From: Phyllobacterium bourgognense
GTDB taxonomy: Bacteria; Pseudomonadota; Alphaproteobacteria; Rhizobiales; Rhizobiaceae
Reading direction: 5' to 3'
Length of the DNA: 64,000 nucleotides
Assembly: GCF_003337575.1 (NCBI RefSeq)
Contig: NZ_QPJM01000007.1
Span: 1-64,000, forward strand
Shown: positions 31,465-47,478 of the stretch, piece by piece
How positions within the stretch are numbered: position 1 is the first letter of the stretch
Layout: each line of letters begins with the position of its first letter
Translations under genes and position numbers: made by a program
The notes under the pieces: model-generated
The model's database searches: none
What the model saw: only the letters and a program-made list of their open reading frames with translations
Told to the model about the DNA's origin: nothing

Positions 31465-31478
31465 AACTGTTGACAATT
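31465..31478. promoter_or_regulatory. Candidate GntR operator before the first MmgE/PrpD operon
   Basis: AACTGT-TG-ACAATT, 68 bp before the start at 31546. It differs from the sites at 36222 and 47463 by one arm base and contains TTGACA (31470-31475), a possible -35 box. Confidence 0.55.
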
Positions 31479-31545
31479 AACAATCCTCCCAGCACAGTCA
31501 ATTTGAGAAGTTACTCAAGACAGACGTGACATAAGAGGATTTGGG

Positions 31546-32961
31546 ATGAATCAGAACAAGGCAGTCGATATCGAGTTGACGAAATATGTGGCCGAATTCG
31601 TGGTCGAAACAACATTTGCTGATCTTTCAGCGGAAGTTATCGAACTAGGCAAGAAATCAATACTCGACGGCTTCGGTCTTGCACTATCCGGTTCGGTTGC
31701 CAAAAGCGGCGAACTGGTTCGCCAGCATCTTGGCGATCTGGGTCTTGCCGATGGTGCCGCGACCGTCATCGGCGGCGGCCGCAAGGTAGCGCCTCGGTTT
31801 GCCGCATTTGCCAACGGCGTCGGCATCCACGCGGATGACTATGATGACACGCAATTGGCCGTTGCCAAGGACCGCGTCTATGGCCTGCTCACACATCCGA
31901 CGGCACCTGCCTTGCCAGCTGCCTTTGCGATCGGCGAACTTGTCAGGTCTTCCGGCAAGGACTTCATGCTGGCATATCACCTCGGCGTCGAGGTAGAGTG
32001 CAAGATCGCCGAAGCAATCGCGCCACGTCATTACCAGACAGGCTTTCACGCGACTGCTACGTGTGGAACTTTCGCCGCCGCCGCAGCAAGCGCCAGACTG
32101 ATGGGCTTCGACGTCGCGACCACACAGCGTGCCCTATCGATTGCGGGCAGCCAGTCTGCAGGCTTGCGCGAGAATTTCGGCACGATGACAAAGCCATTTC
32201 ACGCAGGGCGATCGTCGGAAAGCGGCGTTGCGGCGGCACAGTTTGCTTCCTATGGCTGGACCGCCACGCCTCGGATACTCGAGGCACCGCGCGGGTTCTT
32301 TGCCGCAGCGGGCGGCGGCTACGACCAGAGTGCCATCTTCGACAAGCTGGGCGCGCCTTGGACTTTCGCCAATCCTGGCATCTCCATCAAACCGCATCCG
32401 TCGGGCTCCCTCACCCATCCCGGAATGACCGAAATGTTGCGATTGATCAAAGAGCATGGCATTCGCGCCGAGGACGTGAAGCATGTGCGCGTCGGCACCA
32501 ACTCCAATATGCCGAATGCGTTGATCCATCATCGTCCCAAGGATGAATTGCAAGCCAAATTCTCCATGGAATTCTGCATGGCGATCCTGCTGCTCGAAGG
32601 CCGTGCGGGCCTCAATGAGTTCACAGACGCCGCAGTCGAACGCGAGGACGTCAAGGCGATGATCGAGAAGGTGGATTTCGTTATAGACGACGAGGCCGAA
32701 GCAGCGGGCTATCATCTCATGACAACGCTGATCGATATCGAACTCAAGGATGGCCGCAAGATTTCCGGACGCGCCGATTTTGGCAAGGGCAGCCCGGCAT
32801 TCCCCATGAGCTATGACGAGGTAGCAGGCAAGTTCCGTGAAAACGCCGAGTTCGCAGGGATGTCCCGCAGCAAGGCGGATGAGATCGTCGAATTGGTGCG
32901 CGGGCTGGAAAACCTTGGCACTCTGGACGATTTGTCAGCACGTCTTATCTCCATCGCCTGA
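31546..32961 (+). CDS. MmgE/PrpD family protein (first of three)
   Basis: 471 residues; ATG after AGAGGATTTGGG. Family traits: 'HADDYDDTQ' near 98, the segment 'TGFHATATCGTFAAAAA', 'GTMTKPFHAGRSSESGVAAA' with its conserved Lys and His, and 'ISIKPHPSGSLTHPG'. Members include 2-methylcitrate dehydratase, cis-aconitate decarboxylase and iminodisuccinate epimerase, so the reaction cannot be read from the family alone. It heads a three-gene operon with an AbrB-type membrane protein and a dehydrogenase. More similar to the third paralogue (45948) than to the second (41531) by its motif wording. Confidence 0.88.
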   Translation: MNQNKAVDIELTKYVAEFVVETTFADLSAEVIELGKKSILDGFGLALSGSVAKSGELVRQHLGDLGLADGAATVIGGGRKVAPRFAAFANGVGIHADDYDDTQLAVAKDRVYGLLTHPTAPALPAAFAIGELVRSSGKDFMLAYHLGVEVECKIAEAIAPRHYQTGFHATATCGTFAAAAASARLMGFDVATTQRALSIAGSQSAGLRENFGTMTKPFHAGRSSESGVAAAQFASYGWTATPRILEAPRGFFAAAGGGYDQSAIFDKLGAPWTFANPGISIKPHPSGSLTHPGMTEMLRLIKEHGIRAEDVKHVRVGTNSNMPNALIHHRPKDELQAKFSMEFCMAILLLEGRAGLNEFTDAAVEREDVKAMIEKVDFVIDDEAEAAGYHLMTTLIDIELKDGRKISGRADFGKGSPAFPMSYDEVAGKFRENAEFAGMSRSKADEIVELVRGLENLGTLDDLSARLISIA

Positions 32962-32972
32962 CGAAAATCACC

Positions 32973-34067
32973 ATGCCAGACTCGGGAACATGGGGTGGCG
33001 GTCCGCGTGTCTTCAACCGCCCCCTCGCGAGGATGGGTCTGGCATTGCTGATCGGCATTGCGGGGGCGGTGGCTGCTAGAAGCATCTCGATGCCACTCCC
33101 CTATCTGCTGGGCCCGCTTCTGGCGTGCGGCAGCGCCTCCATCATGGGCGCACCACTTGCTGCATTGCCTTATGGCCGGGAGCTCGGGCAGGTGGCAGTC
33201 GGCCTGGCTATCGGCTTGCGCTTTGTTCCGGTCGTGGTGATTGCAATCGTAAAACTGTTGCCGCTCATGCTGCTAGCAACGGTTTTGACGATTATCGCCA
33301 CAATGGTTGCCGCGTTGTTATTGCAAAAGCTTGCGGGAACGGATCGCAAGACCGCCTTTTTTGCAACGGCCGCTGCGGGTCTTGCGGAAATGGCCGTCGT
33401 CGCCCACCAGAAAAAAGCGGACAGTGATACGGTTGCTGTGGTCCATCTGATCCGCGTTACTTCGATCGTGACGATCGTTCCATTCCTGGTAACGATATTT
33501 GGCGAGGATGGCGGTATTCATCTCACGCCGGTACCGTTTCGCGGCGAAGCAATTCCGCTTGTCGCCCTGTTCGTCGTGGGAGCTGCCGCTGCATTTCTGG
33601 TGCGACGGTTCAAGCTGCCCAATAGCTGGCTGCTGGTTCCCGCGGCTATTGGCGCGATCGTCTCAGGCTTTGGCTTTGGCCCTTTTGCGGTTCCGTCGAT
33701 TGTCCTGACGATAGCGCAGGTCGTCATCGGTGTCTGGCTCGGCTGCCGCTTCAGGCGATCGCTGCTCGGCAGGCTATGGCGGGTAACGTCTTCGGCTCTC
33801 GTGACCACAGCGTTCCTGCTCGCTGTTGCCATGGGAATAGCTTTGGCGCTCTCGGCGGCGACGGGCCTTTCGTTTGTCACAAGCTTGCTAGCGGTAGCGC
33901 CAGCGGGGGTCACCGAAATGGCTCTCACCGCTGCGGGGATGCATCTCGACGCCACGACCGTGACCGCCTTCCAGATCACACGGATTGCTGTGGTGATGAC
34001 GACGATCCTCTTCACGTTTCGGATATTTGAAACCTTTTCGCGTCGCCTCGACGCATCCTCTGATTGA
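32973..34067 (+). CDS. AbrB family membrane protein
   Basis: 364 residues, about ten membrane helices in two similar halves, the pattern of the AbrB duplication family (repeated 'PLAALPYGRELGQVAVGLAI' and 'IGVWLGCRFRRSLLGRLWRV'; 'ATAAAGLAEMAVVA' and 'AVAPAGVTEMALTA'). The family is of uncertain function; transport or regulation of ammonia/organic compounds has been proposed. Follows the MmgE/PrpD gene by 11 bp and precedes a dehydrogenase by 12 bp, which suggests import or export of a pathway acid. Confidence 0.82.
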   Translation: MPDSGTWGGGPRVFNRPLARMGLALLIGIAGAVAARSISMPLPYLLGPLLACGSASIMGAPLAALPYGRELGQVAVGLAIGLRFVPVVVIAIVKLLPLMLLATVLTIIATMVAALLLQKLAGTDRKTAFFATAAAGLAEMAVVAHQKKADSDTVAVVHLIRVTSIVTIVPFLVTIFGEDGGIHLTPVPFRGEAIPLVALFVVGAAAAFLVRRFKLPNSWLLVPAAIGAIVSGFGFGPFAVPSIVLTIAQVVIGVWLGCRFRRSLLGRLWRVTSSALVTTAFLLAVAMGIALALSAATGLSFVTSLLAVAPAGVTEMALTAAGMHLDATTVTAFQITRIAVVMTTILFTFRIFETFSRRLDASSD

Positions 34068-34079
34068 AAGGATTGTTCC

Positions 34080-35150
34080 ATGACAAGCCATCTCGTGATC
34101 GGCATTCTAAACGGCGATGACATCGGCCATGAAATCGTGCCGGCAGCCGTCGAGGTAACGCGCGCAGCGGCCGCCAAGACGGGTCTGCAAATCGATTGGC
34201 GGCCAATGCCGATCGGTCGGTCGGCGCTTGACACGCACGGCTCGACTTTTCCTGAAGGCACGATGGAAACGCTTTCGAAGATGGATGGCTTCATTCTCGG
34301 TCCAATCGGACATCAGGCCTATCCAAAGGTTCCCGGTGCGATCAATCCGCATCCGATCATGCGCAAGGGCTTCAACCTATTCGCCAATGTCCGTCCCACA
34401 AAGTCCTTTCCTGGGCTTGGCGCAGTTCACGAGGGCATCGATCTCGTCATCGTGCGCGAGAACAATGAGGGGTTCCAGCCCGACCGCAACGTCGTGGCCG
34501 GCTCTGGTGAATTCCGGCCGACGGAAGATGTGACGATCTCGGTTCGCGTCATTACGCGCGTCGGCTCATCGCGTGTGGCACGGGCGGCATTCGAAATCGC
34601 GCAGCAACGCAAAAAACGCCTGACGCTTGTCCACAAGAATACCGTGTTCAAGCTGGGATGCGGCATGTTCGTCGAAGAGTGCCACCGGGTCGCCAAGGAA
34701 TTTCCCGAGGTGACCGTCGACGAGGTGATCGTTGACACCATGGCCATGCGTCTCATCCGGGATCCGCAGAGTTTTGACGTTATCGTTACCACCAACATGT
34801 TCGGCGATATATTGACAGACGAAGCAGCGGGGCTCGTCGGTGGTCTCGGTATGGCGCCTGGCCTGTGCATCGGCGAGGGCAACCTGGCGATGGCGCAGGC
34901 CACGCACGGCTCGGCTCCCGATATCGCCGGCAAGGGCATAGCCAACCCATTCGCGATGATCGAGTCCGCACGGATGATGATCGAGTGGCTCGGCCATAAC
35001 CGCAAGATAGCTCAAGCCGTGGAGGCAGCGTCCATCATGGAGAAAGCAATCGCAACGGCACTCGGCAACCCCGCCACGCGTACCCGCGATATCAAGGGGA
35101 CCGCCGACACTGCCGGAATGACAAGGGGAATTATTGCGGCGATTGGTTAG
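34080..35150 (+). CDS. Isocitrate/isopropylmalate dehydrogenase family protein (first of three)
   Basis: 356 residues. NAD(P)-dependent beta-decarboxylating dehydrogenase fold: 'GILNGDDIGHEIVP', 'FANVRPTKSFPGL', 'IVRENNEGFQPDR', catalytic Lys in LVHKNTVFK, metal-binding 'NMFGDILTDEA', and 'HGSAPDIAGKGIANP'. In most homologues the RENTEG loop is followed by the catalytic Tyr; here it reads NNEGFQ, so that Tyr seems absent. This suggests altered chemistry or substrate. Last gene of its operon; a strong terminator follows. Confidence 0.85.
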   Translation: MTSHLVIGILNGDDIGHEIVPAAVEVTRAAAAKTGLQIDWRPMPIGRSALDTHGSTFPEGTMETLSKMDGFILGPIGHQAYPKVPGAINPHPIMRKGFNLFANVRPTKSFPGLGAVHEGIDLVIVRENNEGFQPDRNVVAGSGEFRPTEDVTISVRVITRVGSSRVARAAFEIAQQRKKRLTLVHKNTVFKLGCGMFVEECHRVAKEFPEVTVDEVIVDTMAMRLIRDPQSFDVIVTTNMFGDILTDEAAGLVGGLGMAPGLCIGEGNLAMAQATHGSAPDIAGKGIANPFAMIESARMMIEWLGHNRKIAQAVEAASIMEKAIATALGNPATRTRDIKGTADTAGMTRGIIAAIG

Positions 35151-35160
35151 TCCGTGGATT

Positions 35161-35192
35161 TTGCCCTCGGTCGTTTATGTGTCCGAGGGCAA
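35161..35192 (+). terminator. Rho-independent terminator
   Basis: TTGCCCTCGG (35161-35170) pairs perfectly with CCGAGGGCAA (35183-35192), then TCATTTTATC follows. It ends the PrpD/AbrB/dehydrogenase operon, 10 bp after the stop at 35150, and separates it from the convergent dehalogenase gene. Confidence 0.8.
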
Positions 35193-35200
35193 TCATTTTA

Positions 35201-36151
35201 TCAGGTTTGCGCCGTCGGCTCCTGGCCGTTAAAGAATTTCCAGAACGCGTCATAGACAAGATCGGGACGTTGTTCAGCCGGATAGTGGCCGGTTGGCATT
35301 GCCCAGCCCCGCATATCGGGCGCCCAAGGCCGCCATGCTTCGAGTGGAGCGAAATGACGTCCACAGTGGCTATTGGAACCCCACAGAACCAGCACCGGAC
35401 AGTCGATCTTGCGATTGCCGAAGTCTGCCGTATCCATGGCGAGATCAACGCTGACGGTTGCCCGGTAGTCTTCGCACACCGCATGGATCTGCTCAGGTGT
35501 GGTACAGCGCTTGTATTCAGCCATCGCTTCCGGGCTGAATATTTCAAGGCCGACGCCTTTCTTATTGAGTTTGTAGTCGATGTAGTAGTCAAGGTCAGCT
35601 GTCAGCAGCTTTTCAGGGAATGGCGCCTTCTGCGCCATGAAAAACCAATGATAGGCTTCGAGCCCCCAGCCGAGAGTGACATTGGTAAGTGCGTGATATG
35701 TCGGCACGATATCGAGAGAAGCCAGCCGCTCAACGCGATCGGGAAAATCAAGTGCCATACGGAATGCAGCACGAGCACCGCGATCATGTCCGGCAACTTG
35801 AAACCTCTCGAAGCCAAAGTGCGACATGACTTCTGCGTTGTCCTGCGCCATGGCACGGAATGAATAGGCCGAATGATCGTCCTTTCCATCAGGCTTCGAA
35901 CTGTCGCCATAGCCGCGCAGGTCGGGGGCAACAACAGTAAAACTTTTGGCGAGCGCGGGCGCGATCCTATGCCAGCTGACATGGGTCAGCGGATTGCCGT
36001 GCAACAGCAGAAGCGGCGGCCCCTCACCGCCGATCGCTACATTGATCTCGGCGCCCGCAGTTCGTATCCGCTCATAGCGGAAACCGTGCATCAGCTTTCC
36101 CTTTTCTTCAAAGAACGGGGGCGTCTTGGACATCGACTCTGTCAGCGACAT
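35201..36151 (-). CDS. Haloacetate (fluoroacetate) dehalogenase-like alpha/beta hydrolase
   Basis: 316 residues; ATG 36151 with AAGGAG upstream. The oxyanion segment LLHGNP is followed by nucleophile Asp123 in AGHDRGAR, with Arg124 and Arg127 as carboxylate binders, Asp147 in LDIVPTY, halide-pocket His168-Trp169, CEDYRA (Tyr229), and the general base His289 in TGHYP. Spacing of Asp123 to Asp147 and to His168-Trp169 equals that known for Rhodopseudomonas fluoroacetate dehalogenase (110, 134, 155-156). It should hydrolyse a 2-halo-carboxylate to the hydroxy acid. Divergent from the second dehydrogenase operon across a GntR-type operator. Confidence 0.85.
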   Translation of the reverse strand: MSLTESMSKTPPFFEEKGKLMHGFRYERIRTAGAEINVAIGGEGPPLLLLHGNPLTHVSWHRIAPALAKSFTVVAPDLRGYGDSSKPDGKDDHSAYSFRAMAQDNAEVMSHFGFERFQVAGHDRGARAAFRMALDFPDRVERLASLDIVPTYHALTNVTLGWGLEAYHWFFMAQKAPFPEKLLTADLDYYIDYKLNKKGVGLEIFSPEAMAEYKRCTTPEQIHAVCEDYRATVSVDLAMDTADFGNRKIDCPVLVLWGSNSHCGRHFAPLEAWRPWAPDMRGWAMPTGHYPAEQRPDLVYDAFWKFFNGQEPTAQT

Positions 36152-36221: not shown

Positions 36222-36249
36222 AAATTGTCAACAATTTATAATTGACAAT
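36222..36249. promoter_or_regulatory. Candidate GntR operator and half-site between divergent operons
   Basis: AAATTGT-CA-ACAATTT (36222-36237) is a perfect 7-bp inverted repeat. A half-site AATTGACAAT follows at 36240-36249. It sits between the dehalogenase (start 36151, minus) and dehydrogenase (start 36318, plus) genes, so one regulator could control both. TTGACA occurs in it on each strand, but I see no good -10 at 17 bp. Confidence 0.65.
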
Positions 36250-36317
36250 CACGAAAAAAATCGTCATCCGAGTATATGGAAACGGAATTGCCAAATGCGC
36301 CGCCAAGGAGTCAATCA

Positions 36318-37394
36318 ATGAAGACACACAAGATTGCAGCCATTCCGGGCGACGGTATTGGCAAGGAGGTTGTTGCTGCCGGGCTCCGTGTTCTCGATGC
36401 CTGCGCAACCCGCGATGGCACTTTTACTGTCGATGTCGCGAATTTCCCTTGGGGATCGGATTTCTACAAGGCTAATGGCGTCCTGATGCCCGAGGGCGGC
36501 ATCGATGAATTGAAAGCCTTCGACGCCATCTATTTCGGTGCGGTGGGTGCGCCAGACGTTCCTGATCACTTGACGCTATGGGGCCTGCGCCTCGCCATCT
36601 GCCAGCCTTTCGACCAATACGCCAATGTTCGTCCGACCCGTATTCTGCCGGGAATCGAAAGCCCCTTGCGCGGTGTTACTGCCGAGGATCTCGATTGGGT
36701 AATCGTCCGCGAGAATTCCGAGGGGGAATATGCCGGCCAGGGTGGCCGCTCGCACCGGGGCCTGCCGGAAGAGGTGGCGACGGAAGTCTCGATCTTCACG
36801 CGCGCCGGCGTAACCCGCATCATGCGCTTTGCTTTTCAATTGGCGCAATCGCGACCGCGCAAGCTCCTGACCGTCGTCACCAAATCGAACGCCCAGCGCC
36901 ATGGCATGGTATTGTGGGATGAGATCGCCCGCGAGGTTGCGATCGATTTTCCCGATGTTACCTGGGATAAGATGCTGGTCGACGCAATGACCGTGCGCAT
37001 GACGCTCAATCCGCGATCGCTCGATACGATCGTCGCCACCAATCTTCATGCCGATATCCTTTCTGATCTGGCGGCAGCACTTGCCGGATCTATCGGTATT
37101 GCACCAACCGCAAACCTCAATCCCGAGGGGCGCTTTCCTTCGATGTTCGAACCCATCCACGGCTCGGCTTTCGACATCACGGGCAAGGGCATCGCCAACC
37201 CGGTTGGGACATTCTGGTCGGCGGTAATGATGCTGGAACACCTCGGGGAACCTGCTGCCGCGGCGCGGCTCATGCGCGCCATCGAACGGGTCACTGCTGA
37301 CCCGGCACTGCACACACCGGACCTTCGCGGCAATGCAACGACGGACATGGTTACCGACGCGGTCTGTGCGGCAATTCTCGGCGACAATGAATAG
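36318..37394 (+). CDS. Isocitrate/isopropylmalate dehydrogenase family protein, tartrate-dehydrogenase-like (second)
   Basis: 358 residues from ATG 36318 with AAGGAG nine bases upstream. Motifs: 'IAAIPGDGIGKEVV', 'QPFDQYANVRPTRILPG', 'IVRENSEGEYAGQGG', Lys in VVTKSNAQRHG, 'NLHADILSDLAAAL', 'HGSAFDITGKGIANP'. The RENxEGEY loop keeps the catalytic Tyr and resembles tartrate/D-malate dehydrogenases more than IMDH or IDH. It would oxidise and possibly decarboxylate a 2-hydroxy diacid. First of three tightly spaced genes, 12 bp before the third paralogue. Confidence 0.85.
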   Translation: MKTHKIAAIPGDGIGKEVVAAGLRVLDACATRDGTFTVDVANFPWGSDFYKANGVLMPEGGIDELKAFDAIYFGAVGAPDVPDHLTLWGLRLAICQPFDQYANVRPTRILPGIESPLRGVTAEDLDWVIVRENSEGEYAGQGGRSHRGLPEEVATEVSIFTRAGVTRIMRFAFQLAQSRPRKLLTVVTKSNAQRHGMVLWDEIAREVAIDFPDVTWDKMLVDAMTVRMTLNPRSLDTIVATNLHADILSDLAAALAGSIGIAPTANLNPEGRFPSMFEPIHGSAFDITGKGIANPVGTFWSAVMMLEHLGEPAAAARLMRAIERVTADPALHTPDLRGNATTDMVTDAVCAAILGDNE

Positions 37395-37406: not shown

Positions 37407-38510
37407 ATGCCAGCCAACAGTCTCAAGATTGCGGTGATTGCCGGCGACGGCATCGGAAAAGAGGTAGTCCCGGAAGGATTGCGCGTCCTCAAAACGGCCG
37501 CGGAAAAATTTGACCTCGATTTGACGTTCGACACGTTCGACTTTGCTTCGTGCGACTATTACGCGAAGCACGGCCGCATGATGCCCGAAGATTGGAAAGC
37601 GCAGATTGGCGGCCATGACGCTATCTTCTTCGGCGCCGTTGGCTGGCCTGAAACCGTTCCGGATCATATCTCGCTATGGGGTTCGCTCCTGCAGTTTCGG
37701 CGCGAGTTCGATCAATATGTGAACCTGCGTCCCGTACGCCTTATGCCAGGTGTGCCGTCACCTTTGGCAGATCGCAAGCCGGGCGATATCGATTTCTTTG
37801 TCGTTCGGGAAAACACCGAGGGCGAATATTCTTCGATCGGCGGCAAGATGTACCCCGGGACCGAGCGGGAGATCGTCGTTCAGGAGACGGTGATGAGCCG
37901 CATCGGCGTCGATCGGATTCTCCGTTTCGCCTTCGATCTTGCCCAAAGCCGCGGCAAGAAACACCTGACGTCGGCGACCAAATCCAACGGCATTTCGATC
38001 ACCATGCCCTATTGGGACGAGCGGGTGGAAGAGATGGCAAAGTCCTACGCCGACGTGCGCTGGGACAAATATCACATCGATATTCTTTGCGCGCACTTCG
38101 TGCTCAACCCTGACCGCTTCGATGTCGTCGTGGCATCCAACCTTTTCGGCGATATCCTCTCGGACCTTGGCCCTGCCTGCACGGGAACTATCGGCATCGC
38201 GCCTTCCGGCAACATTAACCCTGAGCGCAATTTTCCATCGCTGTTCGAGCCGGTTCATGGTTCGGCACCCGATATTGCCGGCAAGGGCATCGCCAACCCG
38301 ATCGGCCAGATCTGGGCGGGCGCCATGATGCTGGAGCATCTCGGCCACCCGCAGGCGGCGGCAGCTATCTTGGACGCAATCGAAGCGGTGCTCGCCGATC
38401 CCTCTTCGCGGACCGGCGATCTCGGCGGCACCGCCAACACGATCACGTGTGGCAGGGCGGTGGCGGAGGCGCTTTCCTCATCCAATTCCAACGCGTCGAG
38501 GGCGTCATGA
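37407..38510 (+). CDS. Tartrate dehydrogenase/D-malate dehydrogenase family protein (third)
   Basis: 367 residues, ATG after AGGAAACAAG. It has 'IAGDGIGKEVVPEGLRVL', 'REFDQYVNLRPVRLMPGV', 'RENTEGEYSSIGGK', 'LTSATKSNGISITMPYWDER' and 'HGSAPDIAGKGIANPIG'. The RENTEGEYSS and SATKSNG wording matches TtuC/DmlA-type enzymes (NAD-dependent, Mn2+/K+) acting on tartrate, D-malate or related acids. It is clearly a paralogue, not a duplicate, of the preceding gene. Its last four bases overlap the PdxA-like gene (ATGA). Confidence 0.88.
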   Translation: MPANSLKIAVIAGDGIGKEVVPEGLRVLKTAAEKFDLDLTFDTFDFASCDYYAKHGRMMPEDWKAQIGGHDAIFFGAVGWPETVPDHISLWGSLLQFRREFDQYVNLRPVRLMPGVPSPLADRKPGDIDFFVVRENTEGEYSSIGGKMYPGTEREIVVQETVMSRIGVDRILRFAFDLAQSRGKKHLTSATKSNGISITMPYWDERVEEMAKSYADVRWDKYHIDILCAHFVLNPDRFDVVVASNLFGDILSDLGPACTGTIGIAPSGNINPERNFPSLFEPVHGSAPDIAGKGIANPIGQIWAGAMMLEHLGHPQAAAAILDAIEAVLADPSSRTGDLGGTANTITCGRAVAEALSSSNSNASRAS

Positions 38511-39529: not shown

Positions 39530-40072
39530 AATCCAGGTACCCAATGTCGATGCCAACATAGCGGCAAGGCCGCCAAGTGCCAGTACGCCCAAGACCGGGA
39601 ACCTTGGCGCAAAGTATAGGATCACGCCTGAAAGGCCAGCTATTACAAAGGCTGTGACCCCTCCATCGGCGAGCCGGAACAATGACAACACGCCGGCAAT
39701 GATCAAGCCAATACCGACCGGCGCCAAACCCTCCCGCATGGCGCGATGCCATTTCTTGTCGCGATGATGGTTTGTCAACTTGAAGACGGAATAGCATAGC
39801 AGCGATGATGGAACGAAGAGGGCGAGCGTCGCCACGAAAGCGCCGAGCCAGCCAGCGACCTTCCAGCCAATCACGGTAGCAAGCATCATTCCAGGCCCGG
39901 GAGCGGCGCGCGAAACTGCGAACAGGTCGAGAAACTCGCGAGAATTCACCCAGGCATGAACAGTGACTGTTTCATGTTGAATACCCGCCACAATCGCTGC
40001 GCCGCCCCCGATCGAGGTGAGCGAAAAAGGGATGAAGACCAGGGCGATTGCAACGAGGGTATCGAAACGCAC
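39518..40072 (-). CDS. Chromate transporter ChrA-family, C-terminal-type half (short CHR)
   Basis: 184 residues from a GTG at 40072, chosen because GGAGAATCTAAG precedes it and the upstream gene stops at 40074. About six helices; 'FIPFSLTSIGGGAAIVAGIQ' and 'FAVSRAAPGPGMMLATVIGW' are ChrA-family motifs. With the next gene it makes a split ChrA, a known arrangement in which two short proteins form the pump. Exports chromate, or a sulfate-like anion. Confidence 0.85.
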   Translation of the reverse strand: MRFDTLVAIALVFIPFSLTSIGGGAAIVAGIQHETVTVHAWVNSREFLDLFAVSRAAPGPGMMLATVIGWKVAGWLGAFVATLALFVPSSLLCYSVFKLTNHHRDKKWHRAMREGLAPVGIGLIIAGVLSLFRLADGGVTAFVIAGLSGVILYFAPRFPVLGVLALGGLAAMLASTLGTWISSL

Positions 40073-40073: not shown

Positions 40074-40634
40074 TTAGATTCTCCGCCAGGCCAGAGCGAC
40101 GCTGATCGGGGCGATGACGCAAGCAACCGGAATGAGGGGAAAGCGGAAAATCCCGACAAGTATCGCCGTCACCGCAATGGTAATGATGGATGGAGGGAAT
40201 CGCATCGCCCTGCGAACGCCATGAACACACATGATGATCAGGAGGCCCATTGCAGCAAAGGCCACACCGTCCGAAATCACGGGCAACAAGGGATAGCCGG
40301 CAAGCGCATCGAACAACTGGCAAAGACCGACGACCGCAAAGAACGGGCCGACAAGAAAGCCAAGAACGCAGGCCAATGCGCCTACAGGCCCGCGCAATTG
40401 TTCACCCATGCAGATGACCAGATTGACCACATTCGCACCAGGCAGCATTTGCGAAATCGCCAGACTGCTCGAGAAATCCTCTTCGTCGATCCAGCGCTTG
40501 CTTAGGACGAACTCCCTGTAGAGCCAGCCGCTGAGGCCTCCACCGAAACTCAAGACTCCGATCTTGAAGCAAAGGAAGAAGAGAGAACGAAGGCGTGGTG
40601 TTTCTGGCGGAGAGGCAGGGACTGGAGAAATCAA
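40074..40634 (-). CDS. Chromate transporter ChrA-family, N-terminal-type half (short CHR)
   Basis: 186 residues. Motifs 'FKIGVLSFGGGLSGWLYREF' and 'LAISQMLPGANVVNLVICMG' identify a ChrA half-transporter with about five or six helices. The downstream half begins one base past its stop, and translation is probably coupled. The pair lies 135 bp downstream of the SDR gene in the same direction and may be read with that operon. Confidence 0.87.
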   Translation of the reverse strand: MISPVPASPPETPRLRSLFFLCFKIGVLSFGGGLSGWLYREFVLSKRWIDEEDFSSSLAISQMLPGANVVNLVICMGEQLRGPVGALACVLGFLVGPFFAVVGLCQLFDALAGYPLLPVISDGVAFAAMGLLIIMCVHGVRRAMRFPPSIITIAVTAILVGIFRFPLIPVACVIAPISVALAWRRI

Positions 40635-40769: not shown

Positions 40770-41534
40770 TCAGGGCAGGAAAGCCCCACCGTTCACATGC
40801 ATCGTTTGTCCCGTTATGAAGCGCCCTGCCGGGCCGGCAAGATAGAGCACCGCATCCGCAACTTCGTCCGGCGTTCCGCGCCGGCCGACCAGTGTACGCG
40901 TCGTATTATGGTGCGCCGGCTCGCCTCCGGATGAGGTATGGGCGCGATTGGTATCGATCATTCCGGGCGAGACCAGATTCACAGTGACACCCCGCGGCCC
41001 AAGCTCATGCGCCAAGGCCTTGGTGAACCCATCAAGCCCAGCCTTGGCCGAAATGACATGGGCGCGGTTCATCGCCCCGGTATAGGCGGTAAGACCACCG
41101 ATATTGACGATTGCTCCCCCCTCACCTGCGATCAGATGGGGGATTGCAGCGCGGCTCATCAGAAACGCTCCATCCAGCGTCACACCCATGACTTCGCGCC
41201 AATCGGCGAAGGACAGTTTTTCAACCGGGGCCTCCCGCCGGATGGCTGCATTGTTGACGAGAAGGTCAAGACGACCGAGAACGTCGACAGTCTGAGCGAC
41301 AAGCCGCGCCGCGTCGGCCTCTTGCGCGACGTCGCCGAGAAGCACCGTGGCCCGGCTGCCGTGTGCTTCTACTTCGCGCGCCACGGATTCAGCCGCCGCC
41401 TGATCCGACCTTGCGATGATGGCGATCGAAGCACCGGCCTCGGCCAGCGCAAGCGCGATAGCGCGGCCGATATTGCGCGATGCACCCGTTACCAGCGCGA
41501 CGCGTCCTTTGAGTTCACGATTGTCCTCGCTCAT
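40770..41534 (-). CDS. Short-chain dehydrogenase/reductase with altered active site
   Basis: 254 residues; ATG overlaps the preceding stop (ATGA). The Rossmann start 'VALVTGASRNIGRAIALAL' and 'LLVNNAA' are typical. The usual catalytic Ser is replaced in 'IVNIGGLTAYTG', and the YxxxK Tyr is missing: the region reads 'RAHVISAKAG', so only the Lys is kept. Either it uses other residues or it is not a classic oxidoreductase. Last gene of the TctABC/PrpD operon. Confidence 0.85.
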   Translation of the reverse strand: MSEDNRELKGRVALVTGASRNIGRAIALALAEAGASIAIIARSDQAAAESVAREVEAHGSRATVLLGDVAQEADAARLVAQTVDVLGRLDLLVNNAAIRREAPVEKLSFADWREVMGVTLDGAFLMSRAAIPHLIAGEGGAIVNIGGLTAYTGAMNRAHVISAKAGLDGFTKALAHELGPRGVTVNLVSPGMIDTNRAHTSSGGEPAHHNTTRTLVGRRGTPDEVADAVLYLAGPAGRFITGQTMHVNGGAFLP

Positions 41535-42901
41535 GCCCGTGCCGCCCTCAAATTGACTTTTCTGCCCTCTGCTATCTCATTGAGTGAACTGCGCAATGCT
41601 GCGATCCTGCCGCTGTCAAAGCCGCCGAAACGCAGATTGGCCTCGAACTTGGCAGCCAGTTCAGCATCCGGCAATGGTTCATGTGCGCCGCCGCGCATGT
41701 AGGGCTGTTTGAATTCGTGCACGGTTCCGTCCTTCAGGGTTGCCTTGAGGTGGCCGGTGAAGTTTTTGGGATAAGGATCGTTCGGATCGATCTCATAGGA
41801 GATCTTCGCTGCGAGCGCTCGCACTTCGGGGTCCTTGACGCGTTCATTGGTAAACTGCCCGAGACCCGCCTCACCGTCGAGGAAACCGACTGCCATACAG
41901 AAAGGAGTGGAGAATTTTCCGGCATAGCCATTGGGTGGCCGATGCTTTTCAGCGAGTGGTTCCCACAGGCGATGAACGGTGCCCTCGCCTACCTTGCAAG
42001 TGATGGAAACGATGTCCGCCGGTAGCACGCCTGTGGCTGCCAGCTTCCTCACGCAGTCGATAAAGGGTTGGGTCATGGTCCCGCACGCGTAAGGCTTGAA
42101 CGCCAGTGTCTCGAGGATCCACTTTTTGCCTAGTCCATCAAGCAGGGGTACGAAATCTGGCGTCTTCGACGGAGCAAAGGCCTTGTAGAACCCATGCGAA
42201 CCATCGAAGACCGTGATAGGTCCGGTGAACCCTCCTTCTGCAAGAAGGGCAGCGCGCAACCCGGCTTGTGCCGCAGCTCCGGCATGCAGGCGCTTGGTCG
42301 AACTGCCATCGGCGAGATATTCGATGATGCCGGAGGCGAGACTGCCGGAAATGCCGAGTGCTCTGCCGATCGTCGCGGCGTCGAGACCAAGCGCCGCACC
42401 AACGGCGGCTGCAGCTGCTGGAGCCCCGAATATTGCAGTCGGGTGGAAGCCGGCCTTGTGGGTCGCCTGTGGTGCAACAAGGCTCATCCGGCACATCAAT
42501 TCGGAACCAACCGCAATGCCGCGCATCACTGCCTTGCCATCGAGGCCGCGTTTTTCGGCGATCGCCAAGACAGCCGAGACGATCACCGCCCCGGCGTGGA
42601 TGGGTCCGCCCTCAAAAGTGTCGTCATAGTCCTCCCCGTGGGCGGCTGTGCCATTGACGAGCGCGGCATCGTAGAGCCCGAGGCCGCGATCATGACCATA
42701 GGGCGTGCACGACCCTTCATCCACTGCACTGGCGAGCGCGGCCTGCACATAGTCCGTGTGTCTTGCAGCAATGGAAAGGCCGATAATATCGAATATCAGG
42801 CGGCGGCAGACATCGGCGACCGCAGATGGCGGCGCCGCCTCCTCGGCAAAGGCGGCTAGTTTGACCGCCACTGGTGTCGATGTCGGAACGGAATGGTTCA
42901 T
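41531..42901 (-). CDS. MmgE/PrpD family protein (second of three)
   Basis: 456 residues; ATG overlaps the TctA stop. It contains 'HGEDYDDTFEGGPIHAGAVI', 'GFHPTAIFGAPAAAAAVGAA', 'STKRLHAGAAAQAGLRAALL' and 'FKPYACGTMTQPFID'. The Asp pair and the Lys/His motif of the family are present; the wording differs from the other two paralogues, so it likely catalyses a different step. Sandwiched between a tricarboxylate transporter and an SDR, consistent with action on an imported di- or tricarboxylate. Confidence 0.88.
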   Translation of the reverse strand: MNHSVPTSTPVAVKLAAFAEEAAPPSAVADVCRRLIFDIIGLSIAARHTDYVQAALASAVDEGSCTPYGHDRGLGLYDAALVNGTAAHGEDYDDTFEGGPIHAGAVIVSAVLAIAEKRGLDGKAVMRGIAVGSELMCRMSLVAPQATHKAGFHPTAIFGAPAAAAAVGAALGLDAATIGRALGISGSLASGIIEYLADGSSTKRLHAGAAAQAGLRAALLAEGGFTGPITVFDGSHGFYKAFAPSKTPDFVPLLDGLGKKWILETLAFKPYACGTMTQPFIDCVRKLAATGVLPADIVSITCKVGEGTVHRLWEPLAEKHRPPNGYAGKFSTPFCMAVGFLDGEAGLGQFTNERVKDPEVRALAAKISYEIDPNDPYPKNFTGHLKATLKDGTVHEFKQPYMRGGAHEPLPDAELAAKFEANLRFGGFDSGRIAALRSSLNEIAEGRKVNLRAARA

Positions 42902-44394
42902 GAATGCGCTTCCTCGATTTTGGTCTTGCGGGCGTCGCGGAATTCGCGGCTAAGCGAAAAGACGACGAAGATGAGAGCGATCGACAGCAGGCAAACGGCA
43001 ATCGGATCCTGAAGGAATATCATGTGTTCGCCGCCTGACAGGACGAGCGAACGGCGATAGCTCGATTCCACCATGTGGCCGAGCACGACACCAAGGATCA
43101 TCGGCAGCACGGGGAAACCGGCGATCCTCATGAGATAGCCAACCAGGCCGAGTGCAAGTGCAATGCCGAGATCGAACAGACTGTTATTCAGGGTGAAGAT
43201 GCCTGACAGGATCAACGCAAAGATAAATCCGGCGCGGTAAGCCCGTGGTCTGTTAACAAGCCAGATGCAGGCGGGCAGGATGATCATACCAACACCGATC
43301 TGTGCAATGATAGCGATGAACGAGCCGACGTAGATACTGTCGATGACCTGCGCGCTCTGCTCGAAGAGGCGGGGGCCAGGGATGAGCCCGTGCATCAGCA
43401 AGCCGCCAAGCAGCACGGCTGTAGAATTGGAGCTTGGGATGCCGAAGCTGAGCAGCGGGATCAGCGCGGTACTTGCAACCGTGTTGTTGGCCGCCTCTGG
43501 CGCTGCGACTCCTTCCTCGGATCCTTTGCCAAAGGATTGCGGCGTCTTCGACCAGCGCTTGGCTTCGTTGTAAGACATGAAAGCTGCGATGGACCCGCCG
43601 CCACCTGGTGTCAGGCCCTCGAACAGACCAAGAATACAGCCGATAGTTTGCGAGCGCTTGAGCTTGTTCATCATTGACCAGCTCGGTAGCTTGATCCTGA
43701 TCGTCTCATTCAGTTGCAGGACGGTCGACGAGCCGGATTGGCTCATGAGCTCGGTAAGCGCGAACAGGCCAACCATGACAAGTACGGGTTCAATACCACC
43801 AAGAAGATCGGGAATATCGAAGGTGAAGCGTGTAACGCCGGAGATCGGATCCGTGCCCACAGTCGCGATCATCAATCCGACAGTCGCGGCCGCAAGGCCC
43901 TTGATCAATGACCCTCCGCTCATGGAGGCGATCACGCTAAGGCCGAGGATGCCGAGACCGAAATAGGATGGCGGCGTGAAAGCCAGCGCCAGCCAGGATA
44001 GGGGCTCGGTCAGCAAAATCAGCATCGCTAGTCCAAAGAGACTTCCAACGACGCCCGACATCAGCGAGATGCCTAGTGCCTCGCCTGCACGCCCCTGCCG
44101 GTTCATCTCATAGCCATCGATAACGGTGGCAGCGGAAGAGTTGGTTCCAGGCGTTCTTATGAGAATCGCCGGGATCGAGCCACCATACTCAGCCCCGATA
44201 TAGACGCATGCCAACAGCGCAATCGCTTGAGCGGGGTCCATCGTGTAGGTGAAAGGAAGAACGAGCGCCATGGTGATGGACGCGGATATGCCCGGCAAAG
44301 CGCCACCAAGGATGCCCCAGGTAAGCCCGCCAATGGCAACGAAGAAGAGTGGCGTCTCAGTCAGGAGGTGGATGATGTCCCAGAGTGTGGTCAT
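42898..44394 (-). CDS. tctA: Tripartite tricarboxylate transporter large membrane subunit
   Basis: 498 residues, about eleven helices. 'GILGGALPGISASITMALVL' and 'LLACVYIGAEYGGSIPAILI' are the TctA signature segments, and 'GLTPGGGGSIAAFMSYNEAK' is the second conserved repeat. Transports di- or tricarboxylates with its binding protein. ATG shares one base with the TctB stop (TGATG); stop overlaps the PrpD start. Confidence 0.93.
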   Translation of the reverse strand: MTTLWDIIHLLTETPLFFVAIGGLTWGILGGALPGISASITMALVLPFTYTMDPAQAIALLACVYIGAEYGGSIPAILIRTPGTNSSAATVIDGYEMNRQGRAGEALGISLMSGVVGSLFGLAMLILLTEPLSWLALAFTPPSYFGLGILGLSVIASMSGGSLIKGLAAATVGLMIATVGTDPISGVTRFTFDIPDLLGGIEPVLVMVGLFALTELMSQSGSSTVLQLNETIRIKLPSWSMMNKLKRSQTIGCILGLFEGLTPGGGGSIAAFMSYNEAKRWSKTPQSFGKGSEEGVAAPEAANNTVASTALIPLLSFGIPSSNSTAVLLGGLLMHGLIPGPRLFEQSAQVIDSIYVGSFIAIIAQIGVGMIILPACIWLVNRPRAYRAGFIFALILSGIFTLNNSLFDLGIALALGLVGYLMRIAGFPVLPMILGVVLGHMVESSYRRSLVLSGGEHMIFLQDPIAVCLLSIALIFVVFSLSREFRDARKTKIEEAHS

Positions 44395-44870
44395 CAGAAC
44401 ATTCCCTGGAAAAGCGTGCCTACCGGCTGATGGACGCCGAGCAGTTTGACAAAAATCGCCCAGTAGAACACCGCACCGCCAACCGCCGCTGCCACCACCA
44501 CCCAGTGGCGGGGAGCGCCCTCATACAACGCAACGGCACCAATCAGGAGAGCGGTACCGGCGACATAGCCGATAAACGGAAGGACAAAAACGTAAACCGC
44601 ACCCAGAAGGAGAAAGCCGATCGCGCGCGGCAAGCCGGCGTCACCCTCGTCGGCGTCTGCTGCCGCGGTCGCTGTTCGAGCTCGTCTGAGGAGCATCGCA
44701 CGTCCGATTAAAAGTACAGCAAGAATGGCAAGGATGACGGACAGCACACGCGGCAACCCCGTGGCACCCACTTCATCGGACAAGGTGCTGTCGGCGATTT
44801 GACTGGACCAGGCATAATACGTTCCGGAGACGGCAAGAAGGACAACGCCGCTGATAAGATCTTTGTACAT
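44394..44870 (-). CDS. tctB: Tripartite tricarboxylate transporter small membrane subunit
   Basis: 158 residues from ATG 44870, preceded by GAGGG seven bases upstream; ATG 44891 seven codons earlier is possible. Four membrane helices with a polar Ala/Asp-rich loop in the middle, as usual for TctB. Linked to tctA by a TGATG overlap. Confidence 0.88.
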   Translation of the reverse strand: MYKDLISGVVLLAVSGTYYAWSSQIADSTLSDEVGATGLPRVLSVILAILAVLLIGRAMLLRRARTATAAADADEGDAGLPRAIGFLLLGAVYVFVLPFIGYVAGTALLIGAVALYEGAPRHWVVVAAAVGGAVFYWAIFVKLLGVHQPVGTLFQGMF

Positions 44871-44892
44871 AGGGTGGCCCTCATACGACATA

Positions 44893-44916
44893 GGGGACGG
44901 CTGAAGGCCGATCCCC
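44893..44916 (-). other. Intercistronic hairpin between tctC and tctB
   Basis: GGGGACGGC (44893-44901) pairs with GCCG-A-TCCCC (44907-44916) with one bulged base and a 5-nt loop. It lies between the binding-protein stop (44925) and the membrane-subunit start. No U-tract; comparable to the hairpins at 24104 and 50726. Confidence 0.6.
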
Positions 44917-44924
44917 TCGCGTTA

Positions 44925-45893
44925 TTATTTGATGGCGCCTGTCGACTTCAGAAAAGCTCCCGTTGTCGATCCGAAATTATCGATGAAAGCCGGATAGTCC
45001 TTGTGCCCGATGAACTGAGGCACGAGCACTTCAGCAGTATACGCCTTCTTGTAGTCCGGATCCTCGAGCAGCTTCTTCACCGCTTCATCCCAAATTGCGG
45101 TTGTGGATTCCGGAATACCCTTGGGCCCCGCGAGGCCACGGAACTTGACCAGACTGACGTCAAAACCCGATTCTTTCACAGTTGGCACATCCGGCTTCTC
45201 GGTAATGCGTTCAGGATTGAATGTGGCAAGCAAAGTGATCTTGCCGGCATCGAGCTGCGAGCGCAATTCCTGGATTTCGCCAATGCCGATATCGAGCGTG
45301 CCATTGAGAACATTTAGCATCATATCGCCACCGCCCTCGTGGGTGACAATTGCAGGCGTGACGCCTGCTGCCTTCTTCAGTTGCTCGGCTGCCTGACGTT
45401 CCAGCGATGCGGGATTGGCCGCGCCCCAACGCCCGCGTTCCTTCTTTGCATGGTCGATGACGTCTTTCAGTGACTTGAAAGGCCCATCAGTCCGCGTATA
45501 GATCACCTCGCTATCGGCGAAAATGTTCACCAGTGGATCCATGTCCTTATATGTATTTTGCGGTTTGCTCATCAGCGACGTGTAGATGTAGGTCGGTGTG
45601 GTCGCATAAAAGACACTTCCGTCGGCTGGCGCTGTCGCAACGCGTGCCATGGCCTTTGCGCCACTGCCGCCCTGGACATTTTCCACGATAAACGTAGCGC
45701 CAATATACTTGCCCAGGTACTTCGTCATTTCGCGCAGGAAGACGTCACTACCGCCGCCAGGGCTGGAATGGGTCACCAGCGTCACAACTTTATTGGGATA
45801 AGGCAGCGGATCGGCCTTAGCCGCTGCGCTGGATAAGATAGCGGCAGTGGCAAGGCCGAGCGCCGTCCTCCCGATCAATTTCATGAAATGCAT
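44925..45893 (-). CDS. tctC: Tripartite tricarboxylate transporter substrate-binding protein
   Basis: 322 residues, ATG after GGGAGAGAGACA. The signal peptide is followed by the Bug/TctC signature 'YPNKVVTLVTHSSPGGGSDV' and later 'GGGDMMLNVLNGTLDIGIGE'. It captures a carboxylated compound in the periplasm for TctAB. Bug proteins bind diverse carboxylates, so the ligand is not fixed. 54 bp downstream of the third PrpD gene. Confidence 0.92.
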   Translation of the reverse strand: MHFMKLIGRTALGLATAAILSSAAAKADPLPYPNKVVTLVTHSSPGGGSDVFLREMTKYLGKYIGATFIVENVQGGSGAKAMARVATAPADGSVFYATTPTYIYTSLMSKPQNTYKDMDPLVNIFADSEVIYTRTDGPFKSLKDVIDHAKKERGRWGAANPASLERQAAEQLKKAAGVTPAIVTHEGGGDMMLNVLNGTLDIGIGEIQELRSQLDAGKITLLATFNPERITEKPDVPTVKESGFDVSLVKFRGLAGPKGIPESTTAIWDEAVKKLLEDPDYKKAYTAEVLVPQFIGHKDYPAFIDNFGSTTGAFLKSTGAIK

Positions 45894-45947
45894 TGTCTCT
45901 CTCCCTTCAAGTACCGCTTCTTCAGAACGGTTTTCTACTTTCTCAGA

Positions 45948-47369
45948 TCATTTTGCCGCGAGTTCCCGTTCACCGCTGATCAGTCCAACAAGTCGTTTAA
46001 CATCCGCGCCTTTATCAATGCTGCGCACAAGCGCCAAAAGCTCACTCTGGCTGCCACTATCAATGACGCCCTGCGCGCACATGCGAAACTTGTCCTGAAG
46101 TCCAGCGTCGCTGATCGGATTGGAAGGCCCGCCGCGGTAGCGCTCATCGGCCCATTGTATCAACGTACGCCCGTCCTTGGTGATCACCTCGATACGCGAA
46201 CGGATCTTGTCATAACCGAGCGCATCGATCTCAAGATCGTTGATGACATCCGTACGAGCTTGCAGGTCCTGCATGGCGTCTCCGGCTACAAACGCGTCTT
46301 CGAATTCATGGTGACTGGCGCGGCGGCACAGTACAATCATGGCTAGCAGGGCGGGCATCGAAAATTTAGCCTGGAGATGATTTTGCGCTATCGGATAGCG
46401 AATAGGCTCGATGATATTTTTGCCTGCAAAGAAGCGGATGCGTTCGACCTCTTGTGGTTTCAGATCGTGATCCAGGACCAGCTTCAGCATCGCGTCCATT
46501 GATTGATGGGTGAGAATACCCGACGGGTATGGCTTGATGCTGACGCCGGGCTCGATAATGGTCAAAGGAGCACCGAAACCGGCCACGGTTTTGTCCTCAT
46601 CAAAGCCCTCGCCCATGACGGAAAAGAAGCCCCAGGGGCCGTCGAGTGCAGCCGGATCCGCTTCGAAACCAGCGGCAGCGAGACGTGCTGCAGTGACACC
46701 GTTTTCGCACGCACGTCCGACATGAAGCGGCTTGGTCATGGTGCCAAAATTGACACGGATACCGGCGGCAAAACTTGCCGCCAATCCGAGTGCGTGGGCG
46801 AGCTTGTCTCCGGTCAATCCTAGAAGCTTGGCAGCGGCAACTGCCGCGCCAAAGGTGCCAACCGTACCGCTCGTATGATGTCCGCGGCGATAGTGACGCG
46901 GCTTCATCCATTCGGCAATCTTGCACTCGACTTCGAATCCGAGCTGGAAGGCGAGCATGAGGTCCCGACCATCCAAATTGCGTTTTTCGCTGGCAATGAT
47001 CAGCGCAGCAGTAAGGGGTGGAACGGAGGGGTGGGTCAGCAGACCATAGATATGAGCCGGATCATGGGAGACCTGTGTATCGTCCCAATCGTGAGCATGC
47101 CCGGCAGTCCCCCAAACGCGAGCGGCCAGTGATGCGGGCACCCTCGCCGATCCGTTGCCCGGCAAAGGCGCATCTTCTCGACCTCCCTGAGCAAGGGCGT
47201 CTTCGATAAGAATGCGCACCGACGCTTCGCGACTGCCGGCGAGATAGAGGCCAACGGTGTCAACCATGCAGCGGCGGCCGACGACAAGCGCTTCTTCCGG
47301 CAGGTCCTCATAGGTCGTGCGTTCGATAAAACGTATGGCCTGTGCCGTGATGTCGGAAGATAAATTCAC
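45948..47369 (-). CDS. MmgE/PrpD family protein (third of three)
   Basis: 473 residues from a GTG at 47369, which has CAGGAG nine bases upstream. A TTG start nine codons earlier (47396) lacks such a site. It contains 'HAHDWDDTQVSHDPAHIYGL', 'GHHTSGTVGTFGAAVAAAKL', 'GTMTKPLHVGRACENGVTAA' and 'VSIKPYPSGILTHQSM'. Similar to the first paralogue in these segments. First gene of the minus operon PrpD-TctC-TctB-TctA-PrpD-SDR; its promoter region carries two operator copies. Confidence 0.87.
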   Translation of the reverse strand: MNLSSDITAQAIRFIERTTYEDLPEEALVVGRRCMVDTVGLYLAGSREASVRILIEDALAQGGREDAPLPGNGSARVPASLAARVWGTAGHAHDWDDTQVSHDPAHIYGLLTHPSVPPLTAALIIASEKRNLDGRDLMLAFQLGFEVECKIAEWMKPRHYRRGHHTSGTVGTFGAAVAAAKLLGLTGDKLAHALGLAASFAAGIRVNFGTMTKPLHVGRACENGVTAARLAAAGFEADPAALDGPWGFFSVMGEGFDEDKTVAGFGAPLTIIEPGVSIKPYPSGILTHQSMDAMLKLVLDHDLKPQEVERIRFFAGKNIIEPIRYPIAQNHLQAKFSMPALLAMIVLCRRASHHEFEDAFVAGDAMQDLQARTDVINDLEIDALGYDKIRSRIEVITKDGRTLIQWADERYRGGPSNPISDAGLQDKFRMCAQGVIDSGSQSELLALVRSIDKGADVKRLVGLISGERELAAK

Positions 47370-47423
47370 GCGTCTTGTCTCCTGATGAATATGCAAAGTT
47401 CGGCCGGATATTGGGCCGTCAGA

Positions 47424-47478
47424 AAACTAGGATGTAGAATGTAAATTGTCAACAATCATTGTAAATTGTCGACAATTA
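47424..47478 (-). promoter_or_regulatory. Promoter with tandem GntR-type operators
   Basis: The minus strand reads TTGACA (47452-47447), a 17-bp spacer and TAGTTT (47429-47424). The -35 box is inside GTAAATTGTCAACAAT (47441-47456). A second copy, GTAAATTGTCGACAATTA, starts exactly 20 bp further at 47461 and contains the perfect palindrome AATTGTCGACAATT (47464-47477). Two sites about two helical turns apart suggest cooperative binding. Confidence 0.7.

Follow-up and report, generated by a model that had tools for sequence, protein, structure and literature searches.

What a locus does that holds three MmgE/PrpD proteins within 16 kb is the question raised by positions 31465-47478 of a 64,000-nucleotide stretch of DNA from Phyllobacterium bourgognense, a soil and root bacterium (contig NZ_QPJM01000007.1; this whole stretch is referred to as the window, and all positions are those of the window). 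A sequence-only reading had placed there, besides these three proteins, three dehydrogenases of the isocitrate dehydrogenase (IDH) type, a PdxA homologue, a dehalogenase-like hydrolase, a short-chain dehydrogenase/reductase (SDR), an AbrB-type membrane protein and a tripartite tricarboxylate carrier (TctABC), and had proposed a single pathway for them. All of these genes are present where it put them; it omitted a ChrA/ChrB transporter pair, a GntR/FCD-family regulator and an ATP-binding cassette (ABC) importer. The cluster is genuine, a conserved set of genes that share one operator, and from its sequence we consider it moderately probable that it constitutes a GntR/FCD-controlled catabolic regulon which converts stereoisomeric C2/C3-substituted C4-C6 di- and tricarboxylates to central 2-oxo acids.

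Pfam identified MmgE_PrpD_N and C domains in three window proteins, Iso_dh in three and PdxA in one. Whole-genome searches found four MmgE/PrpD places, six Iso_dh places and three PdxA places, the better PdxA match being at C3:89345; because the cluster holds three, three and one of these respectively, their density in it is not due to chance.

The genes are tied together by the operator AATTGTCRACAATT. At ≤1 mismatch, motif searches of the window and genome found it at five places in 5.6 Mb, four of them in the cluster: AATTGTCAACAGTT before PrpD1 (31465-31478, minus strand), AATTGTCAACAATT between the hydrolase and TtuC1 (36223-36236, plus strand) and, both before PrpD3 on the plus strand, AATTGTCAACAATC (47444-47457) and the perfect palindrome AATTGTCGACAATT (47464-47477). 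The fifth place, C1:329570, is inside an open reading frame (ORF). At ≤3 mismatches the window gave 18 matches on both strands, where shuffled sequence would give 3.72 (sd 2.05). The tandem sites at 47444-47477 can form a hairpin in single-stranded DNA, from which we draw no meaning. A set of 88 related loci (1.74 Mb) contained 56 sites, spread over 32 loci. By home-made gene calls, 54 of these sites fall from -60 to 350 bases relative to an ORF start, most often that of a PrpD3, PrpD1, TtuC, IDH-like, regulator or ABC gene; a reversed and a core-swapped control had no match in the same loci. Additional related loci yielded six further distinct sites (eight listed, those of L114 and L113 repeating those of L097 and L069) and again none for either control. 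Conservation of the operator at matching places across relatives is clear; the counts are not independent, as many of the 88 loci are related by descent.

The sites fall before recognizable units. On the plus strand PrpD1 (31546-32961) is followed by the AbrB-type membrane protein (32973-34067; PF05145, TIGR03082) and an IDH-like dehydrogenase (34080-35150). The hydrolase (35201-36151, minus strand) is divergent from TtuC1 (36318-37394), TtuC2 (37407-38510) and the PdxA homologue (38507-39529), all on the plus strand. The minus strand then carries, in order of transcription, PrpD3 (45948-47369), the solute receptor TctC (44925-45893; PF03401), the small and large membrane subunits TctB (44394-44891; PF07331) and TctA (42898-44394; PF01970), PrpD2 (41531-42901), its partner SDR (40770-41534) and two short CHR anion transporters, ChrA-like (40074-40634) and ChrB-like (39518-40072). 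All three Tct families scored over the Pfam cut-off, so the carrier is complete. The CHR pair was recognized from chromate transporters annotated in L001, a near-identical Phyllobacterium record, ChrB also by Pfam Chromate_transp. Gene lengths in that record were used to judge the starts of TtuC1 (36318), PrpD3 (47369) and the regulator (30674); the starts of the PdxA homologue and ChrB were likewise inferred, the former from L001. The sequence-only reading had counted three transcription units, each preceded by the same kind of inverted repeat. The repeats stand, but since the 36223 site sits between the divergent hydrolase and TtuC1, four transcripts are likelier than three.

Directly preceding the PrpD1 unit on the plus strand are the ABC importer (26662-30554; three ORFs for an ATPase, a solute-binding protein and a fused permease, of ferric/aminophosphonate-like type by NCBIfam best matches below cut-off) and the regulator (30674-31426; Pfam GntR and FCD, annotated as an FCD protein in L001), which is likely to be the factor that binds the operator. 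The motif search of the window detected no strong operator in front of the importer; in L022, L078, L079 and L097 the operator lies beside abcC, and the importer adjoins the gntR orthologue in L001, L002, L058, L079, L097, L108 and L109.

The expectation that the set would be found together elsewhere was borne out by a neighbourhood search. A near-identical copy lies on a plasmid of Phyllobacterium zundukense, with PrpDs of 95-98.5% identity. Neorhizobium NCHU2750 has the whole set with one TtuC, at 72-89% identity for most parts and 56-66% for AbrB, TctB and the CHR pair; 28 kb of Rhizobium BG4 hold two GntR genes, the IDH-like gene, the CHR pair, SDR, PrpD2, TctABC and PrpD3; and in Pacificitalea the set is rearranged, with five MmgE/PrpD genes alongside SDR, TctCBA, IDH-like, AbrB, PdxA and TtuC. 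These five genes form one cluster on P. manganoxidans plasmid pDY25-A (L004, 7786-26001), two of them on very long branches. A sample independent of PrpD2 was obtained by searching 297 genomes of the order with PrpD1: besides the window's own, orthologues with 72-79% identity were present in six genomes from six different families. Within about 10 kb of PrpD1 these carried TtuC (6/6), PdxA, the hydrolase and the IDH-like dehydrogenase (5/6 each) and AbrB (4/6), and the sixth hydrolase was found in an adjoining stretch, L116. Four of the six also have a PrpD2 orthologue, which in three lies no more than about 12 kb away on that contig. With the operator near-confined to the cluster and recurring in relatives, and with shared neighbours in the genomes found through PrpD1, we regard the locus as a conserved regulon.

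A second sample, the best 80 named loci of 505 relatives, was drawn by alignment to PrpD2. The SDR was present in 75 of these 80 loci (three of the five without it being short stretches of 3.3-11.2 kb) and in 60 it immediately followed PrpD2 in the same orientation; no other SDR of this type (≥44% identity) was met across 1.52 Mb. Other members were TctA (54), PrpD3 (28), PrpD4, a further paralogue (18), IDH-like (18), PrpD1 (13) and the hydrolase (12). These member counts and those near PrpD1 come from tblastn and are firmer than presence counts from a home-made gene caller, which are lower bounds (it missed, for example, the hydrolase of L102). Some records overlap (L113/L069, L099/L076, L114/L097 and L116/L101), and two of the six PrpD1 genomes are the L069 and L076 records; residue conservation was therefore counted on distinct sequences, and counts with overlaps (23, 34, 89, 22, 73 and 29) gave the same conservation.

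On either side of the regulon lie other transport genes. Positions 47507-53876 encode a solute-binding protein, a pair of dipeptide-type permeases and two FAD oxidases of the DAO type; of the loci compared, only the Phyllobacterium copies have these genes, other relatives having a second GntR gene there, and we leave them outside the cluster. An oligopeptide-type ABC importer, a DapA-family protein and their own GntR/FCD regulator occupy 19330-26457.

We then considered what the individual enzymes might do. All three PrpDs have iminodisuccinate epimerase (2hp0/2hp3) as their best PDB match (PrpD1 to 2hp3, E 6.4e-55). Published accounts (PMC12290011, PMC7347537) give the epimerase bases as His99 and Tyr145, with His85, Asp88, His150, Lys198 and Lys266 as ligands. 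PrpD1 keeps all seven residues (H85, D88, H99, Y145, H150, K198, K266) in 22/22 distinct orthologues and PrpD3 in 34/34, which supports the handling of stereoisomers suggested by the sequence-only reading. PrpD2 differs in having His at the place of Tyr145, the epimerase second base, in 87/87 distinct orthologues; its other epimerase residues are kept, with the catalytic His in 86/87.

Phylogeny (75 rows) joined PrpD1 and PrpD3 as sister clades (100/100), put PrpD2 in a clade far from them and gave PrpD4, which in relatives is often next to the IDH-like gene, a clade of its own; one P. xenovorans protein joins PrpD1. The PrpD1-PrpD4 clades contain none of the reference enzymes, and 2hp0 groups elsewhere on a long branch, so that PrpD1 and PrpD3 share the residue set of iminodisuccinate epimerase but not its clade. 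Several rows have long branches, with a risk of false joins, and we rely on no clades other than PrpD1+PrpD3, PrpD2 and PrpD4; two Pacificitalea rows labelled PrpD2 on weak similarity fall outside the PrpD2 clade. By this tree the three prpD genes are not one recent expansion; two are close kin and all share the operator. The sequence-only reading had named unrelated, separately regulated PrpD clades as grounds for abandoning a single pathway: PrpD2 is indeed distant, but PrpD1 and PrpD3 are sisters and regulation appears common to all three.

Two known settings for such proteins were compared. The 2-methylcitrate cycle was rejected, as PrpD1 (the only one scored) reached 36.1, 23.4 and 20 bits against NCBIfam cut-offs of 950, 575 and 458, and in the tree E. 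coli PrpD stands apart from the PrpD1-4 clades. The methylsuccinate/itaconate cluster, as described in PMC12290011 and PMC9875883, also includes an MmgE/PrpD epimerase of a 2-substituted succinate within a catabolic cluster, and uses a CoA transferase, hydratase, lyase and acyl-CoA dehydrogenase; in the same accounts the catalytic His/Tyr/Lys set of methylsuccinate isomerase is that of PrpD1 and PrpD3. None of those four accompanying enzymes was found among the Pfam-scanned proteins of our cluster. A P. xenovorans protein of L119, outside the PrpD1-4 clades, is a probable methylsuccinate-cluster member, judging from an upstream CoA-transferase match.

TtuC1 and TtuC2 score 559.2 and 574.7 bits against a TIGR02089 cut-off of 470.4, and TtuC2 has 3flk as its best PDB match (E 1.3e-168); by these matches both are of the tartrate/D-malate dehydrogenase type. 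They resemble tartrate dehydrogenase/decarboxylase (3flk, TIGR02089) in this respect, but here they come as a pair, accompanied by PrpDs, a hydrolase and a PdxA homologue. The IDH-like dehydrogenase (PF00180) is below cut-off for all 17 NCBIfam profiles scored (best 294.3 against 409.8), so that assignment as an isocitrate, isopropylmalate or homoisocitrate dehydrogenase is not supported. Its NPHPI loop is invariant (N, P, H, P and I each in 27/27 distinct orthologues) at the place which we take to be where the isocitrate/isopropylmalate dehydrogenase superfamily reads its substrate. The best NCBIfam scores of the PdxA homologue, 272.3, 261.4 and 246.6 bits, are below their cut-offs of 470, 290.35 and 583, as are the other four; on these scores it is not an equivalog of PdxA or of threonate-4-phosphate dehydrogenase, and a threonate-4-phosphate route through it was rejected.

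The partner of PrpD2 is an unusual SDR. It passes the FabG profile NF009466 (230.1 bits, cut-off 222) and has the fold and nucleotide-binding motif of FabG. Classical SDRs use a catalytic Ser-Tyr-Lys. The ordinary SDR of L015 reads IVN-SS...Y-x-x-x-K, whereas in an ungapped alignment the window SDR reads IVNIGG...RAHVISAK: the Ser place is Gly-Gly and the Tyr place Val, each in 71/71 distinct orthologues. The Lys is kept (71/71), as are Arg157 (71/71) and His159 (70/71), which form an Arg-x-His just before the Val, and Arg99 (71/71). Lactate dehydrogenase works with His and Arg, and by analogy the SDR may use its own His and Arg in a similar way. The pattern is preserved in a relative from Shinella and for the most part in one from the archaeon Haloarcula, the former lying between a rhodanese and TauE and the latter near LeuC/LeuD-type genes. 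A second SDR type (SDR_c; L101, 1384-2178), which stands beside PrpD4 in relatives, also appears to be without Ser and Tyr. The non-canonical SDR deserves study in its own right.

Taken as one regulon, these parts suggest a sequence of events. TctABC, and probably also the ABC importer, would bring the acid in; the import of a di- or tricarboxylate proposed by the sequence-only reading is plausible, resting as it does on family knowledge. PrpD1 and PrpD3 could take and return the C-alpha proton through their His/Tyr pair and so interconvert epimers. A related proton abstraction by PrpD2, with His for Tyr, would most likely lead to elimination or addition of the dehydratase or lyase type, its product passing to the SDR for oxidation or reduction of a 2-hydroxy/2-oxo group by way of His/Arg. 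If the substituent is a leaving group, its displacement from the alpha carbon by the hydrolase might yield a malate-type acid, and the CHR transporters might export the released anion. TtuC1, TtuC2, the IDH-like dehydrogenase and the PdxA homologue would, by the chemistry of their families, oxidize and beta-decarboxylate malate- and tartrate-type products, and the GntR regulator would repress the units until substrate is present.

Several observations weigh against so unified a scheme. At ≤2 mismatches the operator is unspecific genome-wide (35 + 37 matches by strand, 8 + 8 for the reversed pattern). PrpD1 is rare, occurring in 7/297 genomes of the order with the window's own included, and hydrolase orthologues occur in 5/385 genomes of the class at E ≤ 1e-110. 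In two of the six other genomes with PrpD1, a PrpD2 orthologue is absent at E ≤ 1e-100, and a beta-decarboxylating-type enzyme was visible, within the stretches examined, in only 25/80 PrpD2 loci. The module is also separable: many loci are limited to GntR-PrpD3-TctCBA-PrpD2-SDR, or to PrpD2-SDR and a different importer, and the hydrolase/TtuC/PdxA unit is sometimes found away from PrpD2. Since these sub-units occur apart in other genomes, the single pathway of the sequence-only reading may be several pathways under one regulator; co-regulation and conservation of the module favour its proposal, the separate occurrences do not. In favour of the scheme, a homologue of malic enzyme, another beta-decarboxylating type, neighbours PrpD2 in L067 and L081 and the SDR in L062 (Pfam was run on that of L067 only).

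The nature of the substrate turns largely on the hydrolase. Its closest PDB matches are Alr0039, fluoroacetate dehalogenases and a probable epoxide hydrolase. Fluoroacetate dehalogenases act through a nucleophilic Asp. Further residues listed for this enzyme are Arg111, Arg114, His155, Trp156, Tyr219, His109, Asp134, Lys181 and His280 (PMC5485738). The hydrolase keeps all ten (nucleophile, triad, halide pocket His/Trp/Tyr, Arg pair and Lys) in 21/21 distinct orthologues, as matched by motif and spacing rather than by alignment to RPA1163; distances Asp-Asp 24, Asp-His 45 and Asp-Lys 71 fit, and the final Tyr and His lie closer by 3-4 residues. It thus has the catalytic residues, halide pocket and Arg pair of that enzyme, but stands beside C4-acid genes in nearly all loci examined, one exception being L111, where its only neighbour is IDH-like.

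Within the favoured regulon, the substituent could be no leaving group at all, and we hold this to be a realistic possibility, somewhat short of probable. The regulon would then be a broad system for stereoisomers of natural acids with a hydroxy or alkyl group (D-malate, tartrates, alkylmalates, isocitrate isomers), and the hydrolase would act on an epoxide, for example epoxysuccinate. The tartrate dehydrogenase cut-off passed by both TtuCs is in keeping with this, four beta-decarboxylating-type dehydrogenases would suit several malate-type acids, and the match of the hydrolase to a probable epoxide hydrolase is joined by a mandelate-racemase-type protein beside it in L098. It sits less well with the complete dehalogenase residue set, and with the anion transporters or rhodanese that recur beside the hydrolase.

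Those recurrent neighbours hint at sulfur at least as much as at halogen. Among 23 hydrolase loci, 13 have the CHR pair, 7 have a rhodanese, 1 has TauE and 2 have none of them, and no two occur together; of the 13 loci with the CHR pair, 11 are close kin from Phyllobacterium, Rhizobium and Neorhizobium. TauE and CHR are likewise mutually exclusive in PrpD2 loci (10 and 21 of 88; 9 and 21 of 86 without overlaps). All of these exclusivity counts are inflated by shared ancestry. The rhodanese has one CAGRTR loop, kept in 10/10; a rhodanese of 427-617 amino acids lies beside or near the hydrolase in L026, L059, L098, L099, L100, L102, L110 and L116, and a second TctABC carrier is also found in L026, L098, L099, L100 and L116.

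Rhodanese homologues were also found in 67 plasmid records, of which seven neighbourhoods were examined. A thiol dioxygenase was near the rhodanese in L139, L142 and L143, with a cystathionine lyase also in L139 and L142; TauE was near it in L142 and in L136 (Shinella), and the CHR pair with a sulfate exporter in L140. The Shinella run (L136, 238-7519) consists of an FAD oxidoreductase, an LLM flavin oxidoreductase, a solute-binding protein, the rhodanese, the SDR relative and TauE. No thiol dioxygenase, CHR, sulfate exporter or TauE was found beside the rhodanese in L141 or L144. On the Marinobacter plasmid of L141 (5905-12802) the rhodanese is near MmgE/PrpD, a CaiB/BaiF CoA transferase, a CoA ester lyase and an acyl-CoA dehydrogenase, by gene content a methylsuccinate-like cluster with a sulfur gene.

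On this basis a sulfur substituent was considered, which we rate as possible but rather unlikely: thio- or sulfo-succinates or -malates would have their C-S bond cleaved by the hydrolase or PrpD2, and the sulfite would be exported by the CHR pair or TauE or trapped by the rhodanese. In PMC5373536, mercaptosuccinate dioxygenase clusters carry a rhodanese, a likeness to relatives of the module in gene presence. They differ from the module in that no rhodanese or TauE match was found in the whole window, where the CHR pair stands alone, and no thiol dioxygenase among those window ORFs that were scanned. The absence of the sulfur genes named above from beside the rhodanese in L141 and L144 also tells against sulfur. 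A tally of unlabelled neighbours (235 ORFs in 176 clusters, 148 listed, 99 scanned) gave only scattered sulfonate-enzyme hits and no run of them among the first 25 of 128 Pfam families of these 99 proteins. TauE and CHR families, moreover, carry other anions too. More speculative, and in our view unlikely, is a new route in which the hydrolase displaces, or PrpD2 eliminates, a sulfur oxyanion from a thio-, sulfo- or sulfinosuccinate or -malate, PrpD1 and PrpD3 opening all stereoisomers to it and the SDR representing a new subfamily, devoid of Ser and Tyr, that acts on the 2-hydroxy/2-oxo group through a His/Arg site resembling that of lactate dehydrogenase.

A halogenated C4 acid, which the sequence-only reading had thought possible, we also regard as unlikely. 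Here the hydrolase would strip halide with inversion from a 2-halosuccinate or halo-malate, the epimerases would supply the stereoisomer required, and TtuC would convert the resulting D-malate or tartrate to pyruvate or glycerate. The conserved dehalogenase residues speak for this, as does the divergence of the hydrolase from TtuC across an operator; a ClC-type chloride channel near PrpD1 in L101 is a single case. Natural halosuccinates are rare, the hydrolase also matches a probable epoxide hydrolase, and the rhodanese in 7/23 hydrolase loci suggests sulfur rather than halide. Given the rhodanese, TauE and CHR neighbours in relatives, a sulfur anion appears at least as likely as halide to be the leaving group.

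That unrelated organic-acid genes were brought together by chance or plasmid shuffling, with no common pathway, fits the sub-units found apart in other genomes and the plasmid-borne Phyllobacterium copy, but is very improbable and was rejected, as the operator is near-confined to the cluster in the genome and conserved in relatives with 0 control matches, and most of the gene set recurs in six other families.

The favoured reading remains a GntR/FCD-controlled regulon for stereoisomeric substituted di- and tricarboxylates, such as substituted succinates and malates, whose breakdown would finish with beta-decarboxylation. The claim that no described pathway has this combination held in the open-licence literature searched: combining MmgE with tartrate dehydrogenase, or MmgE/PrpD with tripartite tricarboxylate, returned no paper on this set, which is weak evidence of novelty. 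MmgE/PrpD homologues are present in 19.2% of species in a dereplicated GTDB and are mostly uncharacterized, according to PMC12290011. Here one operator ties the PrpD1-PrpD3 clades (and PrpD4 in relatives), a dehydrogenase and the SDR together, so that a single inducer screen could assign many enzymes; and if the sulfur reading were true, the regulon would represent a new way of releasing sulfur from small acids.

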